From the NCBI RefSeq assembly GCF_015277855.1, contig NZ_CP063812.1, positions 1,860,001 through 1,924,000 on the forward strand: DNA of 64,000 bases. Direction: 5' to 3'. Shown here in pieces: positions 33,589-42,731 of the stretch (its first letter is position 1; every line of letters begins with the position of its first letter). Under the pieces are notes generated by a model that saw only the letters and a program-made list of their open reading frames with translations, had not been told where the DNA came from and ran no database searches. Origin of the DNA: Microbacterium cremeum. Its GTDB lineage: Bacteria; Actinomycetota; Actinomycetes; Actinomycetales; Microbacteriaceae. A program made the translations under genes and the position numbers.

Positions 33589-33751
33589 GGTTTCGATACG
33601 TGCTCCTTCGTCGCACCACTCAACCCGGCGGGTTTCGATACGTGCTCCTTCGTCGCACCACTCAACCCGGCGGGTTTCGATACGTGCTCCTTCGTCGCAC
33701 CACTCAACCCGGCGGGTTTCGATACGTGCTCCTTCGTCGCACCACTCAACC
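33589..33751. repeat. 42-bp tandem repeat, 3.9 copies
   Basis: Units begin at 33589, 33631, 33673 and 33715. Each runs from GGTTTCGATACG through TGCTCCTTCGTCGCACCAC to CTCAACCCGGCG. Three are identical, and the fourth breaks off after CTCAACC. Since 42 is a multiple of 3, reading frames stay open on both strands across the array. It lies just before pepA and 74 bp before the PAC2 gene. There are no unique spacers, so it is not CRISPR. Confidence 0.9.
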
Positions 33752-33824: not shown

Positions 33825-34745
33825 ATGCCCTTTCCCGGCCCGCTGTACGAGCGTGCGGCCTCCGCGCCGCCGGTCCCGCGCGGACTGCCGCTCGTGATCG
33901 CTCTCACCGGCTTCACCGACGCGGGCAGCGCGGTGAGCCGTCTGATCGAGTACTTCCGCGATGAGCTGTCGACGTCGCCGCTCGCGGTGTACTCGAACGA
34001 CTCCCTGCTGGACTACCGCGCGCGCCGGCCGATCGTGTCGTTCGAGAAGGACCACCTGACGGACTACCGCCCGCAGCGGCTCGAGCTCTCGTTCGCTCAC
34101 GATTCACTCGGTCAGCCGTTCCTCCTCCTCGCGGGGTACGAGCCCGACTTCGGATGGGACGCGTTCGCGGCATCCGTCGTCGCCTTCGCGGAGTCGTACG
34201 GCGTGTCGACGGTCACCTGGGTCCACGCCATCCCCATGCCCGTGCCGCACACCCGCCCGATCGGCACGACGGTCAGCGGAACCCGCTCCGAGCTCACCGA
34301 GGCCCACTCGGTGTGGCAGCCACACACGCAGGTCCCCGCGACCGCCGGTCACCTCCTCGAGTTCCGCCTGGCCGAAGCGGGGGCCCGGATCGCGGGCTTC
34401 GTGCTGCTGATTCCGCACTACCTGGGCGACACCGAGTATCCGGCGGCCGCGCTGGCGGCCCTGGACAGCCTCACCGCCGCGACGGGACTCGTCTTCGCCG
34501 GTGACGAGCTGCGCGACGAGAACCGCGCCTACCTCGAGAAAGTGTCGGAGCAGATCGCGGGCAGCGAGGAGCTCGCACGCATGGTGCAGGGGCTGGAAGA
34601 GCGTTATGACGCGTACATGGCCGGGTCCACCCTCGCCACGCCGATGATCCACACCGGCGATCTGCCGAGCGCGGACGAGCTCGCCGCCGAGCTCGAGCGC
34701 TTCCTGGCATCGCGTCCGGGCGACGACGACAAGCGCGGCGCCTGA
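33825..34745 (+). CDS. PAC2 family protein
   Basis: The 306-aa protein carries the PAC2 fold seen in archaeal and eukaryotic proteasome assembly chaperones and in actinobacterial relatives. Recognisable parts are LPLVIALTGFTDAGSAVSRL at residues 20-40, LLLAGYEPDFGWDAF and the C-terminal helical LARMVQGLEERYDAYM. Its place beside sigA is conserved in actinobacteria. The biochemical role is unknown. It has no membrane segment. Confidence 0.82.
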   Translation: MPFPGPLYERAASAPPVPRGLPLVIALTGFTDAGSAVSRLIEYFRDELSTSPLAVYSNDSLLDYRARRPIVSFEKDHLTDYRPQRLELSFAHDSLGQPFLLLAGYEPDFGWDAFAASVVAFAESYGVSTVTWVHAIPMPVPHTRPIGTTVSGTRSELTEAHSVWQPHTQVPATAGHLLEFRLAEAGARIAGFVLLIPHYLGDTEYPAAALAALDSLTAATGLVFAGDELRDENRAYLEKVSEQIAGSEELARMVQGLEERYDAYMAGSTLATPMIHTGDLPSADELAAELERFLASRPGDDDKRGA

Positions 34746-34986
34746 CGGCATCCGCCCGCGGCGGAATGATGCGCCCACCCGGTGCGTTGTCTTCACCGAC
34801 GGAGACGCGCCGACCGTGGTGGGGCGATGCTGGCGGCGCGCGGCAAGTGTGAGATACTGGATGCTCTGACCCGTTGTCAACCGTCTTCGCGGGGTTTCTC
34901 TGCGAGACGCGGACTTGACAAGGGTCTTACTAGTGTCCGAAACCGACCGGAGCGTGCGCGGCACGTCGACCGGTGAAAGGCGAAAC

Positions 34987-36344
<1,358 letters not shown>

Positions 36345-36348
<4 letters not shown>

Positions 36349-37709
36349 GCGAGGCGGACGCCCCGGCCCCGCGTCGGCCGGGCCTGCGGTACGTCGTGCC
36401 CGTCCTCGCCGGCAAGCTCGCGCGCTTCGCGACGCGCCTGCGCGGCGGCGGGTCGGCGTTCCCGGGATACCTGACCAACCGGATGGCACCGACGCTGCTG
36501 CCGACGCTCGCCGATCAGTTCGGCCACGGCGTCGTGTTCGTGCTCGGGTCGAACGGCAAGACGACGACGACGCACATGATCAGCGAGGTGCTGCGCGCCC
36601 ACGGCCTGAACGTGTTCACGAACCCCACCGGGGCGAACCTGCCGCAGGGTGTCACCAGCGCGATGCTCGCCGAGGCCACGCTCACCGGCCGCGTGAAGGC
36701 CGATGTCGCCGTGCTCGAGGTCGACGAGGGCTTCGCCGCGGATCTGGCCGACCTGCTGTCGCCTTCGGTCATCGTGTCGCTGAACGTGCAGGTCGATCAG
36801 CTCTACAGATTCTTCGAGACCGAGCGCGTCGCAGACATGATGCTGGATGCCTCGACGCGCGCGTCCGCGCACGTCATCGTCAACCGTGACGATCCCTACC
36901 TGTCGAAGATCGACGAGAGCGCGATGCGCGCCCCGGTCTCCTACTTCGGCGTCGCCCCCGAGCTCGTCGCCGCCTCGGCGCACGGCCTGGCGAACGCCGC
37001 CGATCTGCGCAGCGGCGAGTCCGGTGCCGCGCACCCGACGCTTTCGCCTTTCGCCGAGGTGACGGCCGTCACGGGCCGCGACGTCACCGTCACTGTCGGT
37101 GACGAGCGGTTCGGCATCCGGATCCCGGCTCGCGGTATGCACTACGCCGCCGATGCCGCAGCGGCGATCGCGGTCGCCGCGCGCATGCTCGGCGACGACT
37201 TCCGCTCCGGCGATGCCGCGTCCGGATTCGCGCGGATGGCGCCGGCGTACGGCCGCGGCGAGGTCGTCCCGCTGAACGGCGATCCGGCCGGCGAACAGGT
37301 CGAGTTCGTGATGTTCAAGAACGGCCCGAGTCTGCAGATGAATCTCGATGCGCTCGACGGGTCACCGGAACGGTTGCTCATGGCGATCGACGAGGGCACG
37401 CCCGACGTCTCGTGGCTCTATGACGTCGACCTCGACGCCATCGGGCACGTGGACGTCGTCGCCGGCGAGAAGGCCTACCAGCTCGCTCTGCGGCTGGAGC
37501 ACGCCGGAATCCCGATCGATATGGTCGAGCCCGACATGGAGAAGGCGGTCGCGCACATGCGGAGCCTTCCGCCCACCGCGGCTGGTCGCCAGACCTGGTT
37601 CGTCAACTATGAGCTCATGTTCGTGGGTCGCCGCCTGCTCGGGCACGGCGACCAGGAGGTCGCGCGCCGCGCGGCGCGCCGAGACACCGCGGATCGAGGG
37701 TCCCGATGA
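36345..37709 (+). CDS. MurT-like Mur ligase without the zinc ribbon
   Basis: MurT with GatD normally amidates the alpha-carboxyl of D-Glu in lipid II, through an acyl phosphate. This 454-aa protein keeps the P-loop GSNGKTTT (68-75), VLEVDEG, NRDDPYL and the C-terminal DUF1727 motif [11 protein letters not shown], with the catalytic Asp near 360. It has no cysteine at all, so the four-Cys zinc ribbon of typical MurT is missing. The ATP-dependent activation chemistry therefore looks intact while the standard architecture has changed. Start GTG overlaps the sigA stop, and its own stop overlaps the gatD-like ATG. I read it as a ligase diverted to another amine (inference). Confidence 0.85.
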
Positions 37710-38461
37710 GCCAGACGCTTCGCATCGCACAGCTCTACGCCGACGAGCTCGGAGTCACCGGCGATCGCGGCAACGTGCTCGCCCTCCAAGCGCGCTGGGA
37801 GCGGTTCGGCGGGGACGCCGTCCGCGTGCTCGTCGGCCGGGGTGACGAGATCCCCGCCGACACCGACATCGTCGTGATCGGCAATGGCCCCCTGTCGGCC
37901 ATGCGCCTGGTGCTGTCCGACCTGCGAGAGAAGGCCGGGTCACTCGAGACGCTCGTGGCCCAGGGCGCGCCCCTCCTCGCCGTCGGCGGCGGGGCCGAGC
38001 TGCTCGGCGAGAGCGTCGAGACGCTCGAGGGCGAGACGCTCACCGGCGTCGGCCTGTTCCCGTTCCGGGTGCACCGGGTCCGCGACCGTCGCGTGGGCTA
38101 CGTCGTCGCCGACACCGAGCACGGGCGCCTCGTCGGCTTCGAGGACCACGCATCGGACTGGACGCTCGGCGACGGTGCCGTCGAGTACGGTGTCGTCACG
38201 GCCGGCAAGGGATCGTTCGCGCGCACCCAGGGTCGCGGCGAGGGCGTGCGGCGCGGCGACGCGTACGCCTTGAACGTCCAGGGCCCGGTGCTGCCCCTCA
38301 ACCCGCAGCTGACCGACGTGCTCCTGAGCGCCGCCGCCTCGCGCCGCGGCGTCGAGTACCGCACCGGCGAGGCGCACGCCGAGATCGACCGCCTCGCAGC
38401 CGGCGCCCGCGAGGCGATCCTGGCTCGCGCGGGCAAGGTGTTCAACTCGATGGGCGTATGA
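37706..38461 (+). CDS. GatD-like protein lacking the glutaminase catalytic residues
   Basis: GatD is the class I amidotransferase that feeds ammonia to MurT. This 251-aa protein keeps the fold: RIAQLYADELGVTGDRGNVL, IVVIGNGPLS, LVGFEDHA and VQGPVLPLNP. The nucleophile Cys of the usual AxCGG is Gly94 in LAVGGGAELLG, and the His of the usual HGPLLP is Gln192. With both gone it cannot hydrolyse glutamine by the known mechanism. It may be a structural partner or amine-substrate adaptor for the MurT-like ligase. It is coupled to that gene by ATGA. Confidence 0.85.
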   Translation: MSQTLRIAQLYADELGVTGDRGNVLALQARWERFGGDAVRVLVGRGDEIPADTDIVVIGNGPLSAMRLVLSDLREKAGSLETLVAQGAPLLAVGGGAELLGESVETLEGETLTGVGLFPFRVHRVRDRRVGYVVADTEHGRLVGFEDHASDWTLGDGAVEYGVVTAGKGSFARTQGRGEGVRRGDAYALNVQGPVLPLNPQLTDVLLSAAASRRGVEYRTGEAHAEIDRLAAGAREAILARAGKVFNSMGV

Positions 38462-38504
38462 CGCCTCCGCGGACTCCCGGCACTGCCGACCTAGGCTGGG
38501 ACGC

Positions 38505-39164
38505 ATGATCGTGGCCGAGCCGCGCGCGAGCGCGCCCCTCGTGCGCGTGTCGCGCGCCGCCGTCGTGGCGAACGTCCGCGCCGCGCTGCGGGAGCACCCC
38601 TCAGCCGCCGTCGACGTGCGACGGGACGCATGCGGACACGGCGCCCGGCTCGTCGCCGACGCCGCACTCGAGGCGGGAGCCGCGTACGTCCTGTCCGACG
38701 CCGACTCTGCTGCGGACCGGCATGGCCGCGATGTCCTCGCCCTCGAGGCCGTCTTCGGACTCGAGGGGCGCGGTACGCCGGCGCTCGCGCTCACCGGTCC
38801 GGTCCTCTCGATCAAGCCGCTGTTCGCGGGAGAGGGAGTCTCGTACGGCTATCTCCATCGCGCCGAGCGGGACACCCGTGTCGCGCTCGTCTCCGGCGGC
38901 TATGCCCACGGCGTGGCACGCGCGATCGGCGGTCGCGCGATGGTGCGCATCGGCGGAGCCGAGCTGCCCATCATCGGTCGTGTGGCGATGGACGTCTGCG
39001 TGGTCGACCTCGAGGACGCAGACGTCGCGCCGGGAGATCGAGCCGTCTTCCTGGGTCCGGACCACCCCGATGCCGCGGCGACGTGGGCGCGGGCGACCGG
39101 GCTCACCGAGCTCGAGCTCGTGGCCGCGGTCGGCCTGCACACCGCTCGTGAGGTGACCGCATGA
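38505..39164 (+). CDS. short alanine-racemase-like protein with C-domain Tyr, no PLP lysine
   Basis: The 219-aa protein is an Alr reduced to a vestigial N-terminus plus the C-terminal beta domain. VDVRRDACGHG at 36-46 aligns with the PLP-lysine motif of Alr, but Arg39 stands where Lys39 should be. The C-domain is well kept: AGEGVSYGYL, GGYAHG with the catalytic Tyr133, and GRVAMDVCVV. On its own it cannot bind PLP as an internal aldimine. It overlaps the next gene by ATGA. A TAGGCT box 7 bases before the ATG suggests its own leaderless promoter in addition to read-through from gatD, 43 bp away. Confidence 0.85.
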   Translation: MIVAEPRASAPLVRVSRAAVVANVRAALREHPSAAVDVRRDACGHGARLVADAALEAGAAYVLSDADSAADRHGRDVLALEAVFGLEGRGTPALALTGPVLSIKPLFAGEGVSYGYLHRAERDTRVALVSGGYAHGVARAIGGRAMVRIGGAELPIIGRVAMDVCVVDLEDADVAPGDRAVFLGPDHPDAAATWARATGLTELELVAAVGLHTAREVTA

Positions 39165-40201
39165 CCGCGGAGCTGCGGGTCGACCTCGACCGCTTCCGGC
39201 GCAACGTCCGCGTCGTCCGGGCGCGCATGGCACCGGCCGAGGTGCTCGTGGTCGTGAAAGACGACGCGTATGCGCTCGGGGTCGACGCGATCGTGACGGC
39301 GGCCCTCGAGGCCGGCGCGACGTGGTTCGGCGCACTGGATCCTGCGAGCGCCCTGCGCGCCAAGCAGATCGCAGGGGAGCGGGCGCGTGTCTTCGTCTGG
39401 CTCACCCTCGGCGCCGACGAGACCGAGGAGGCGCTGCGGGCCGGTCTGGAGCTCGGGATCGGCGACGCGACGTACCTGGAGCGTGTCTCGACGGCGTCGT
39501 CCGTCATCGGGCTGCCCGCGACGGTGCATCTGAAGGTCGACACCGGGCTGCATCGCAACGGCGTGCGCCCCGAGGACTGGCCCGAAGTCGTGGCGCGGGC
39601 TGTCGAGTTGCAGCGGGCCGGACGGATCCGCGTCGCCGGGATCTGGAGCCACATCGCCGAGGCCAGCGACGCCGAGGACGACACCTCACGCGCCGTGTTC
39701 GACGCGGCCGTGGACCGCGCGCGCGCTGCCGGGCTCGACCCCGATGTCCGGCACCTCGCTGCCAGTGCCGCGGCCTGGCATCGACCGGAATTCCGGTACG
39801 ACCTCGTGCGAGTCGGAGCGTTCTGCTACGGCGTCCGCTCTGCGGAGGGTCCGGAGCTGGCGGGGATCGAGCCGATCGCGACGCTGGCCGCGCGAGTCGT
39901 GGGCGTGAGCCCGGGCCGGGCGACGATCGACGTCGGCGCGGCGGACGGCGTGCTCTCCACGCTCGCCGGCCGCGTTCAGGTCGCGACCCCCGCCGGGCCG
40001 CGCCTCCTGCTGCGCGTCGGGCCGTTCGATGCCGACGTCGAGGCGTGGGACGGCGCTCACGTCGGCGACGACGTGATGATCTTCGGCGCGCCCGGCGAGG
40101 GCGTGCCGAGTACCACTGATCTCGGCGAAGCAGCGGGCACTGTCGGCGAGGAGCCGCTGCTGCGCGTGTCTCCGCTGATCCCGCGCGTCTATTCGGGCTG
40201 A
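39161..40201 (+). CDS. long alanine-racemase-like protein with PLP lysine, C-domain Tyr lost
   Basis: The 346-aa protein has a full Alr barrel: PLP lysine K33 in VLVVVKDDAYALG, HLKVDTGLHRNGV, WSHIAEASD and RVGAFCYGV. Its C-domain is shortened; GVSYG is missing, and VGYADG has become VGAADG, so the catalytic Tyr is Ala260. CMDQ is also absent. Alr dimers place Tyr from one chain next to Lys of the other, so this chain and its 219-aa neighbour are complementary. The substrate may be alanine or a diamino acid. A hairpin follows. Confidence 0.85.
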   Translation: MTAELRVDLDRFRRNVRVVRARMAPAEVLVVVKDDAYALGVDAIVTAALEAGATWFGALDPASALRAKQIAGERARVFVWLTLGADETEEALRAGLELGIGDATYLERVSTASSVIGLPATVHLKVDTGLHRNGVRPEDWPEVVARAVELQRAGRIRVAGIWSHIAEASDAEDDTSRAVFDAAVDRARAAGLDPDVRHLAASAAAWHRPEFRYDLVRVGAFCYGVRSAEGPELAGIEPIATLAARVVGVSPGRATIDVGAADGVLSTLAGRVQVATPAGPRLLLRVGPFDADVEAWDGAHVGDDVMIFGAPGEGVPSTTDLGEAAGTVGEEPLLRVSPLIPRVYSG

Positions 40202-40255: not shown

Positions 40256-40474
40256 TCAGGCCTGAAGTCGCTCGGTCTCGTCGTGCCACGACGTGGCGAT
40301 GGTACGCAGCTTCTCTTCGTATTTGCGGCCGTGGTGGGCGCAGAACAGCAGTTCGCTGCCATTGACCTCGGCCGCGATATAGGCCTGAGCCCCGCACGAG
40401 TCGCACCGGTCCATCGCCGTGAGGCGGTACTCGAGGACGGCGGCGTTCTCCGTGGGTGTCGAAAGCGTGGTCAT
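40256..40474 (-). CDS. DUF7455 small zinc-ribbon-like protein
   Basis: The 72-aa protein has CDSCGAQAYIAAEV followed by LLFCAHHGRKYEE, giving Cys-x-x-Cys and Cys-x-His-His ligands for one metal. Actinobacterial homologues of this length are common near parE and have no known role. GAGGAGGGAACGAG before the ATG (MTTLSTPTEN) fixes this start over a longer frame. It is divergent from parE. Confidence 0.82.
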   Translation of the reverse strand: MTTLSTPTENAAVLEYRLTAMDRCDSCGAQAYIAAEVNGSELLFCAHHGRKYEEKLRTIATSWHDETERLQA

Positions 40475-40643
40475 CTCGTTCCCTCCTCGTATGCGTAGAA
40501 CTCCATTGCGGTCATGAAATACAACCACGGCCACGATGCGAGAATGCCGCGAACCGAGCACATTTCGCTGAGCGCGTACGCCCCGGGTCCTCGGGAGCGT
40601 GTCGACCCTGCGCCGGGCAGGCTCGCGATTACGATGGGAGATT

Positions 40644-42731
40644 GTGACCGCCGAGTATTCCGCCCATCATCTCCAGGTGCTCGAGGGCCTCGAGGCGGTC
40701 CGCAAGCGGCCTGGAATGTACATCGGCTCGACCGACTCCCGCGGCCTCATGCACTGCCTCTGGGAGATCATCGACAACTCCGTCGACGAGGCGCTCGGGG
40801 GCCACGGCAGCCGCATCGACATCGTGCTGCACACCGACGGCAGCGTCGAGGTCCGCGACCGTGCGCGCGGCATCCCCGTCGACATCGAACCCCGCACCGG
40901 GCTCTCGGGCGTGGAGGTCGTGTTCACCAAACTGCACGCGGGCGGCAAGTTCGGCGGCGGCTCGTATGCCGCGTCCGGCGGCCTGCATGGTGTCGGCGCA
41001 TCCGTCGTCAACGCTCTCTCGGAGCGCCTCGACGTCGAAGTCGATCGCGGCGGCAAGACGTGGGCGATGTCGTTCCATCGCGGCGAGCCGGGCGTGTTCT
41101 CCAACGGAAGCCCCGACTCCGCCTTCACGCCGTTCGAGGATCGCAGCGAGCTGCGCGTCGTGGGTCGCGCTCCGAAGGGCGTGTCCGGCACACGTATCCG
41201 GTACTGGGCGGACCGCCAGATCTTCACGAAGGACGCCGCGTTCAACCTCCAGGAACTCGAGCAGCGCGCGCGGCAGACCGCCTTCCTCGTGCCTGGACTC
41301 GAGATCGTGATCCGCGATGAGCGCCCGGCGTCGACCGCCGAGACCGGCGCCCCGGTCGAGACGAGCTACCGCTTCGACGGCGGCATCTCGGAGTTCGCGG
41401 AGTTCCTCGCTCCCGATGCCGCCGTGACCGACACGTGGCGCCTCACCGGCTCGGGGACGTTCACCGAGACGGTGCCCGTGCTGCAGCCGACCGGTGCGAT
41501 GATCCCCACCGAGGTCGAGCGCGAGTGTCATGTCGATGTCGCCGTGCGCTGGGGGACCGGCTACGAGACGGTGTCGCGGTCGTTCGTCAACATCATCGCC
41601 ACCCCCAAGGGCGGGACGCACCAGCAGGGCTTCGAACAGGCGCTCATGAAGGTGCTCCGCACGCAGATCGAGCAGAACGCGCGCCGTCTCAAGGTCGGCA
41701 ACGACAAGCTCGAGAAGGACGACATCCTCGCGGGCCTGACCGCCGTCCTGACCGTGCGACTGGCCGAGCCTCAGTTCGAGGGGCAGACGAAGGAGATCCT
41801 CGGCACTCCGGCGGTTCGACAGATCGTCGCCAACGTCGTCACGCGCGAGCTGACGGCGCGGTTCACCTCCACCAAGCGCGACGACAAGGCGCACACGTCG
41901 CTGCTGCTCGACAAGGTCGTCTCCGAGATGAAGGCGCGCATCTCGGCGCGGACGCACAAAGAGACGCAGCGGCGCAAGAACGCCCTCGAGTCGTCGTCGC
42001 TGCCGGCCAAGCTCGCCGACTGCCGATCGAACGACGTCGCCGAGTCCGAGCTGTTCATCGTCGAGGGCGATTCGGCGCTCGGCACCGCCAAGCTCGCGCG
42101 CAACAGCGAGTTCCAGGCACTGCTGCCGATCCGGGGCAAGATCCTCAACGTGCAGAAGGCGTCGATCAGCGACATGCTCTCGAACGCCGAATGCGCCGCG
42201 ATCATCCAGGTCATCGGTGCCGGCTCTGGCCGGTCGTTCGACCTCGACACCGCCCGATACGGCAAGATCATCCTGATGAGCGATGCCGACGTGGACGGCG
42301 CGCACATCCGCACGCTGCTGCTCACGCTCTTCTTCCGCTACATGCGCCCGCTCATCGAGGACGGCCGCGTATTCGCCGCCGTCCCGCCGCTGCACCGGGT
42401 TGTCGTCATGAACCCCGGCTCCAAGCCGAACGAGACGATCTACACGTACTCCGAGCAGGAGCTGCACGGTCTTCTGGCCAAGCTGACCAAGGCCGGCAAG
42501 CGGTGGCAGGAACCGATCCAGCGCTACAAGGGCCTCGGCGAGATGGACGCGGATCAGCTGGCGACGACGACGATGGATCGCGCCGGCCGCACGCTGCGCC
42601 GCGTGCGGATGACGGATGCCGAGGCTGCGGCATCCGTCTTCGAACTGCTCATGGGCAACGACGTCGCCCCGCGCAAGGAGTTCATCATCGACTCCAGCGA
42701 CCGCCTCGGACGCGAGCGCATCGACGCTTGA
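40644..42731 (+). CDS. parE: DNA topoisomerase IV subunit B (GyrB/ParE type)
   Basis: The 695-aa ATPase subunit of a type IIA topoisomerase has the GHKL motifs RKRPGMYIGSTDSRGLMHCLWEIIDNSVDEAL and GGLHGVGASVVNAL. The Toprim domain has EGDSALGTAKLARNSEFQALLPIRGKILNV and MSDADVDGAHI. The location after sigA, facing a separate A subunit, matches actinobacterial topoisomerase IV and not the gyrBA pair at the origin. The start is a GTG with GGGAG upstream. Confidence 0.9.
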   Translation: MTAEYSAHHLQVLEGLEAVRKRPGMYIGSTDSRGLMHCLWEIIDNSVDEALGGHGSRIDIVLHTDGSVEVRDRARGIPVDIEPRTGLSGVEVVFTKLHAGGKFGGGSYAASGGLHGVGASVVNALSERLDVEVDRGGKTWAMSFHRGEPGVFSNGSPDSAFTPFEDRSELRVVGRAPKGVSGTRIRYWADRQIFTKDAAFNLQELEQRARQTAFLVPGLEIVIRDERPASTAETGAPVETSYRFDGGISEFAEFLAPDAAVTDTWRLTGSGTFTETVPVLQPTGAMIPTEVERECHVDVAVRWGTGYETVSRSFVNIIATPKGGTHQQGFEQALMKVLRTQIEQNARRLKVGNDKLEKDDILAGLTAVLTVRLAEPQFEGQTKEILGTPAVRQIVANVVTRELTARFTSTKRDDKAHTSLLLDKVVSEMKARISARTHKETQRRKNALESSSLPAKLADCRSNDVAESELFIVEGDSALGTAKLARNSEFQALLPIRGKILNVQKASISDMLSNAECAAIIQVIGAGSGRSFDLDTARYGKIILMSDADVDGAHIRTLLLTLFFRYMRPLIEDGRVFAAVPPLHRVVVMNPGSKPNETIYTYSEQELHGLLAKLTKAGKRWQEPIQRYKGLGEMDADQLATTTMDRAGRTLRRVRMTDAEAAASVFELLMGNDVAPRKEFIIDSSDRLGRERIDA

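Follow-up and report, generated by a model that had tools for sequence, protein, structure and literature searches.

Which reaction is served by the four genes that directly follow sigA in Microbacterium cremeum, and what would join a ligase pair related to MurT/GatD to two incomplete racemases? The DNA analyzed here (the window, 64,000 nucleotides of contig NZ_CP063812.1, positions 1,860,001 to 1,924,000) contains the gene of the principal sigma factor, sigA (34915–36348, + strand). The slot that opens at its stop codon is occupied on the same strand by murT, gatD, alrC, and alrN, encoding a MurT-like Mur ligase, a GatD-like protein, and two chains related to alanine racemase (Alr). In peptidoglycan of group B, the α-carboxyl of D-glutamate (D-Glu) is already used by the cross-bridge. 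The family to which the organism belongs, the Microbacteriaceae, is described with walls of this group in PMC10978784. In the open-access literature searched, with subscription papers lying outside that search, no enzymes building group B cross-bridges are named, and nothing bearing on MurT/GatD in Microbacteriaceae was found. An earlier note, made from the letters of the window, had proposed that the cluster is the machinery of such bridges.

Our answer, to which we assign a rough probability of 0.62 on the basis of sequence comparisons, is that the interval between sigA and a downstream gene presumed to resemble parE is a modular locus that would build the group B cross-bridge, with a predicted heterodimeric racemase supplying a D-diamino acid. 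The comparisons drew on 120 genomes of the family, 198 of the order, and 59 of Microbacterium. The locus offers concrete candidates for group B bridge enzymes, an internal control in the natural swaps of modules between close relatives, described below, and a chemical prediction of wall type from genotype.

The MurT-like and GatD-like proteins

The product of murT (36345–37709, + strand, 454 residues) comprises the Mur ligase domains PF08245 and PF08353, with the P-loop kept and the four cysteines of the zinc ribbon absent. Its GTG start overlaps the stop codon of sigA by 4 bp, and gatD (37706–38461, + strand, 251 residues), which encodes a GATase_3 domain (PF07685), overlaps murT by another 4 bp. 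A gap of 43 bp separates gatD from alrC, and alrC again overlaps alrN by 4 bp, so that the open reading frames (ORFs) bear out the arrangement described in the earlier note. The gene order, the P-loop ligase domains, and the GATase_3 domain are those of the MurT/GatD lipid II isoglutaminyl synthase of Staphylococcus aureus, Streptococcus pneumoniae, and Mycobacterium tuberculosis. Unlike in that enzyme, the zinc-ribbon cysteines are missing, and the scores lie far below the NCBIfam equivalog cut-offs (109.8 bits against 800 for the MurT-like protein, as well as 87.5 against 450 and 74.4 against 400 for the GatD-like one).

A further difference concerns the glutaminase site. When the window's GatD is aligned to the solved structures (5n9m/6gs2), the nucleophile of the S. 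aureus enzyme, Cys94, corresponds to Gly94 (codon 37985–37987), and His189 corresponds to Gln192 (codon 38279–38281); both losses had been claimed from the window and both are confirmed against the solved S. aureus GatD. Extended to the relatives, the claim holds for the cysteine and fails for the histidine. The Cys is missing in all 85 family GatDs encoded beside sigA, being replaced by Gly in 57, Ala in 15, His in 7, Ser in 3, Asn in 2, and Thr in 1; the catalytic His is kept in 52 of these 85, and both residues are lost in the other 33. The Cys is likewise missing in each of the 47 GatD ORFs that could be called at the 56 named murT loci of Microbacteriaceae (eight rows are shared by the sets of 85 and 47) and in all of the best 120 homologues of the window's GatD, among which those listed by name are nearly all Microbacterium proteins. 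Among the 101 family rows (one further family row from the order scan, L064 of G303, with Gly and His, was left out), 16 have no sigA nearby, and 13 of these have both Cys and His. Loss of the Cys was also looked for elsewhere in the order: the residue is retained in all 63 GatDs that were read from its other families (66 genomes gave a match; G120, G207, and G129, all three weak with E about 1e-4, were left out, and 4 of the 63 matches end before the His). The loss of the Cys goes with the sigA slot, and within this sample it is confined to the family; the comparison of residues within the family and in other families rules out an alignment accident or an order-wide trait. In the MurT partners of the Cys-less class, the zinc-ribbon cysteines are missing in 79/81, and the P-loop is present in 80/81.

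From these features we infer the following reaction, its acceptor, and its amine. Like MurT itself, the MurT-like ligase would phosphorylate the D-Glu α-carboxyl of a stem peptide linked to lipid (or to a nucleotide), and the GatD-like protein, its glutaminase nucleophile lost, would no longer make ammonia, acting as a structural partner or as an amine-binding subunit. The acyl phosphate would then be attacked by an amino acid instead of ammonia, most likely by a D-diamino acid (in this organism D-ornithine).

It might be argued that the pair still amidates D-Glu with free ammonia, the GatD-like protein being a mere scaffold and the racemase pair an unrelated neighbour. Chemically, a synthetase that depends on ammonia and is paired with a dead glutaminase is plausible, and both the retained ligase domains and the P-loop, kept in 80 of the 81 MurTs of the Cys-less class, would suit it. 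We nevertheless consider this explanation very improbable, since the α-carboxyl in group B walls is already taken by the bridge, and the same slot in relatives holds a CofE-like protein and an ATP-grasp protein, whose families join amino acids through peptide or amide bonds. The window's genome gave a single MurT match and no second one, which supports the reading of the earlier note.

Other forms of the pair occur in the family. In a third class of GatD, Cys94 is replaced by His in the motif FTHNALEVLG (7/85 family rows, at L152, L155, L156, L158, L160, L161, and L162, and 5/47 named rows, at L196, L208, L226, L237, and L259). Among the 7 family loci of this class, the zinc ribbon is retained in the MurT partner at 6, and ATP-grasp genes stand beside several of them. 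Pairs of the Cys type without a nearby sigA are found at L098, L100, L101, L103, L104, L106, L109, L114, L116, L119, L140, L146, and L147, and in two genomes, G060 and G050, such a pair coexists with a Cys-less one.

A putative racemase divided between two genes

An ordinary alanine racemase is a homodimer in which each active site combines Lys39 from one subunit with Tyr265 from its partner. In the window, these residues are divided between two adjacent genes. The first, alrC (38505–39164, + strand, 219 residues), encodes a minimized chain with the Ala_racemase_C domain only, most of the barrel being missing. The second, alrN (39161–40201, + strand, 346 residues), encodes the full barrel (PF01168, Ala_racemase_N), lacks the segment of Tyr265, and has an Ala_racemase_C domain slightly below the Pfam cut-off (22.7 against 25 bits). 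In AlrC, Arg39 (codon 38619–38621) occupies the position of the lysine that binds pyridoxal 5′-phosphate (PLP), Tyr114 (codon 38844–38846, motif SYGY) is equivalent to the catalytic Tyr265, and Met162-Asp163, the conserved MD motif, to Met312-Asp313. In AlrN, the PLP lysine is kept as Lys33 (VVKDDAY, codon 39257–39259), and the segment with the catalytic Tyr is absent from the alignment to solved Alr. Both chains match alanine racemase in sequence, and their homologues at present carry that name in the database, although neither reaches the cut-off of NCBIfam TIGR00492 (168 bits; AlrC 88.5, AlrN 113.7). AlrC matches in its model as well: the AlphaFold2 (AF2) prediction (predicted local distance difference test score, pLDDT, 93.1) superposes 210 of 219 residues, at 2.1 Å, on the M. 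tuberculosis alanine racemase, spanning residues 12–382 of that chain. As modeled, AlrC is an alanine racemase with most of its barrel cut out.

The earlier note had called the two products complementary racemase halves, and the residues are indeed partitioned without overlap among the relatives. All 44 AlrN rows (40 distinct) have equivalents of Lys39, Arg136, His166, Arg219, and Gly221 and lack one of Tyr265, whereas all 43 AlrC rows (39 distinct) retain Tyr265 and Met312 and have another residue, mostly Arg, or none in the place of Lys39; four pairs of this first set occur twice, in an unnamed and a named locus, so that the rows are not all distinct genomes. The barrel of AlrC is largely gone in most rows, a loss that is usual and not universal, with 6/43 frames exceeding 320 codons. 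The same pattern is found in 29 further pairs (27 from Microbacterium, that of M. schleiferi, and a second pair of Agreia), and throughout the best 120 homologues of AlrC from the protein database the Tyr, Met, and Asp are retained, with the Lys in none. As with GatD, losses and retentions fall on identical residues in dozens of genomes, which is more than chance. A frameshifted or decayed alr is ruled out, because dozens of genomes, with the genes in either of two orientations, share this split and the residues kept in it. The genome of Agreia sp. Leaf283 (L306) carries its second pair elsewhere, with AlrN before AlrC. Two tandem racemases of Clavibacter michiganensis (L308) were considered as another instance of the split and rejected, because both are complete, with all the checked catalytic residues kept.

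Because Lys39 and Tyr265 are shared across subunits, AlrN and AlrC can form one complete site together and neither can do so alone. The pair is predicted from these residues to be an obligate heterodimer with one active site, in place of the two of the ordinary dimer of fold-type III PLP enzymes, which it resembles in the fold of AlrC and in the catalytic residues distributed across its two chains. The PLP lysine would be provided by AlrN, and the equivalents of Tyr265, Met312, and Asp313 by AlrC, the product being a D-diamino acid; we infer D-ornithine for this genome. The pair would be a clean case of a homodimeric enzyme that degenerated complementarily into an obligate heterodimer, and no description of a heterodimeric alanine racemase of this kind was found in the open-access literature searched.

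Could the pair be a redundant racemase making D-Ala or some other D-amino acid, or be catalytically dead and regulatory? In sequence both chains are nearest to alanine racemases, AlrC also in fold, and the genome has three further full-length homologues outside the pair, so that AlrC/AlrN may be spare. We regard this as unlikely. In the pairs examined, AlrC and AlrN together retain every catalytic residue, and all 18 pairs in named sigA loci accompany a candidate bridge ligase (14 a murT, 4 a CofE-like gene). AlrC is present, judged by position and frame length, in 48/59 Microbacterium genomes (residues were checked in 29 loci, L275–L303, 27 of them new) and missing in 11, and neither half is found in the sigA loci of these 11.

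One strongly reduced genome (G013, 0.9 Mb, locus L128) retains sigA-murT-gatD plus a convergent racemase pair, which suggests that both matter to it.

A second putative ligase module in the same slot

Cys-less GatD and MurT beside sigA, as well as the racemase halves, thus stand as the earlier note described them, and its wider claim, that the cluster is the group B machinery in general, does not. There is no murT in 48/59 Microbacterium genomes (11/59 have it), nor is there a match in 21 of the 120 family genomes, one of them, G110, being counted by exclusion. The four-gene cluster is ruled out as the definer of group B walls, because the genomes without murT mostly have another module in its place. 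In all 19 murT-negative Microbacterium loci read, sigA is followed by a gene for a CofE-like protein of about 232 residues, with one or two ATP-grasp genes nearby in 16 of them. The CofE-like profile, built from 15 of these 19 loci, finds strong matches in 15/120 family genomes, all among the 21 without murT.

The CofE-like protein has a weak, above-cut-off match to PF01996 over its first 80-odd positions, and its model (pLDDT 84.6) finds Archaeoglobus CofE (2phn) as the best fold (E 7.6e-9, TMq 0.61). It shares this fold and family with CofE, the coenzyme F420-0:L-glutamate ligase, and differs from it in scoring far below the cut-off of NCBIfam F420_cofE (23.1 and 30.1 bits against 180.65) and in its place after sigA, mostly with ATP-grasp and often with the racemase halves. 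The neighbouring ATP-grasp proteins match PF14397 strongly. Sequence searches of solved structures with the CofE-like and ATP-grasp proteins found no relative. Judged by these similarities, both ligase alternatives resemble formers of peptide or amide bonds. D-Asp ligase of the ATP-grasp type and Fem-type enzymes add bridge amino acids in peptidoglycan of group A; these act on the side-chain amine at position 3, not on the D-Glu α-carboxyl.

The two modules exclude each other in the named loci. Out of 76 named sigA loci, 56 have murT, 15 have the CofE-like gene, none has both, and 5 have neither; the CofE-like gene is accordingly present in 15 of the 20 without murT. Two of the five with neither (L218 and L266) end at or inside sigA, and the genomes of the other three have murT elsewhere. 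In all 71 named loci with either module, murT or the CofE-like gene starts within about 180 bp of the end of sigA. The 85 family sigA loci were chosen by murT/gatD matches and therefore cannot show the frequency of the CofE-like gene. At L153 and L154, a divergent CofE-like gene (E about 1e-45) adjoins a divergent murT-like gene.

The modules have also been exchanged repeatedly. Upstream of sigA lies a conserved gene (33825–34745, + strand), presumably PAC2-like, which is not part of the machinery and was used as a marker for the scan of named loci and for a tree; it is matched in 59/59 Microbacterium genomes. On this tree of 100 rows (61 with murT, 34 with the CofE-like gene, 5 with neither), 13 module changes are counted, against 28 expected from shuffling, and at least 7 are forced by the starred branches. 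The genome of the window is placed among relatives of the CofE type: its six nearest genomes by this gene (88–91% identical) are all without murT, and the three of them that were read have the CofE-like gene, ATP-grasp, and both racemase halves at the slot. Each of the genera g7, g9, g54, and g55 includes genomes of both module kinds. When unrelated genes repeatedly displace each other in one slot, the simplest explanation is a shared function, and in the relatives the CofE-like protein and the ATP-grasp ligase would perform the step proposed here for MurT/GatD.

Wall chemistry and the surroundings of the locus

The presence of the racemase may be related to the diamino acid of the wall. M. 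lacticum, M. flavum, and M. laevaniformans, which we take to have L-lysine (L-Lys) walls, fall together with M. telephonicum and five racemase-less genomes in a starred clade of ATP-grasp proteins, in which L315 and M. flavum have identical sequences. The ATP-grasps of most racemase-bearing genomes group (support 88) with those of M. barkeri, M. betulae, M. hydrocarbonoxydans, M. terricola, and M. schleiferi. For the genus, D-ornithine (D-Orn), L-Lys, or diaminobutyric acid (Dab) is reported in PMC10757982, which places the species of the M. lacticum clade in a cluster not listed there among those with two diamino acids. Ornithine is given for M. betulae in PMC11319209 and, as we read a table row, for M. 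schleiferi in PMC10978784. Across these few names, the clades fit a racemase that would be needed for D-Orn and not for L-Lys, and Microbacterium lineages without the racemase would use an L-amino acid (L-Lys). A fuller version, in which the locus would be switchable, its modules having often displaced each other at the same D-Glu step, and in which a complementarily degenerated duplicate racemase would make D-Orn and be missing where L-Lys is used, has in our estimate slightly better than an even chance.

A further rule can be conjectured from the definitions of the B types. MurT/GatD may join a D-diamino acid directly to D-Glu, and the CofE-like and ATP-grasp proteins may build a glycine-first bridge of two residues. 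A murT is found at the slot in Clavibacter, Subtercola, Cryobacterium, Frigoribacterium, Glaciihabitans, and Agreia, among other named genera. In PMC5358740, PMC5945732, and PMC7033078, Clavibacter, Subtercola, and Cryobacterium are given Dab and type B2γ, Frigoribacterium D-Lys and B2β, Glaciihabitans Dab, and Agreia L-Dab joined to D-Orn. Loci of the CofE type include five of the seven that are named Salinibacterium and show sigA, one from a Cryobacterium strain (BB307), and one from a Lacisediminihabitans metagenome-assembled genome; PMC7033078 gives Lys/Orn for the genus Salinibacterium and B1α for the type species of Lacisediminihabitans.

Several observations weigh against the modular bridge locus or parts of it. 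As regards the ligase pair, the His is kept in most of the Cys-less GatDs (52/85), the sole GatD type in 11 family genomes is the Cys one, located away from sigA, and the loss of the zinc ribbon is not specific, a pattern search finding 9/12 Cys-type family MurTs also without it; the Fisher test on the family GatD rows (p = 1e-14) ignores shared ancestry. As regards the modules, 3/19 CofE-type Microbacterium loci have no ATP-grasp, 8 murT loci do have an ATP-grasp gene, so that this gene is not strictly tied to the CofE-like module, a murT match and a strong CofE-like match are both missing from 6/120 family genomes, and two (G049, locus L154, and G112, locus L153), the only such among the 120, carry divergent forms of both. 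Because the PAC2-like gene lies next to the locus, both may have undergone the same recombination, and the tree is not fully independent. Salinibacterium and Cryobacterium show both module types, which weakens the rule of direct and glycine-first bridges. As regards the racemase, in five further genomes without it the ATP-grasps are tandem and belong to another clade, and G359, which has the racemase, lies outside the two-clade picture, with one ATP-grasp of each of two further kinds. No racemase pair was found in the searched genomes of Clavibacter (2), Rathayibacter (2), and Subtercola (1), all with the MurT/GatD pair, although PMC5358740 and PMC5945732 report diaminobutyric acid for Clavibacter and Subtercola.

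By one more explanation, the cluster makes a product other than the bridge, such as a cofactor or a peptide carried by another polymer, with its adjacency to sigA being synteny only. The six family genomes with neither ligase module would be expected under it, relatives of CofE normally act on coenzyme F420 (the matches here being weak), and the case for the bridge is built from gene data. The similarity to MurT points instead to the D-Glu of the stem peptide, and module subtype, together with the presence of the racemase, tracks the published diamino acids of Microbacterium, for few names. We hold a non-bridge product to be quite improbable and favor the modular locus that would build the cross-bridge.

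Beyond alrN, the slot ends at a small conserved ORF (40256–40561, − strand), presumably DUF7455, and is bounded downstream by the gene of a topoisomerase B subunit (40599–42731, + strand), which we take to be gyrB/parE-like; similarity to each is found in 17/20 Microbacterium loci. At the other end, directly upstream of the PAC2-like gene, a unit of 42 bp forms a perfect tandem array (33589–33751) of 3.9 copies with 100% matches.

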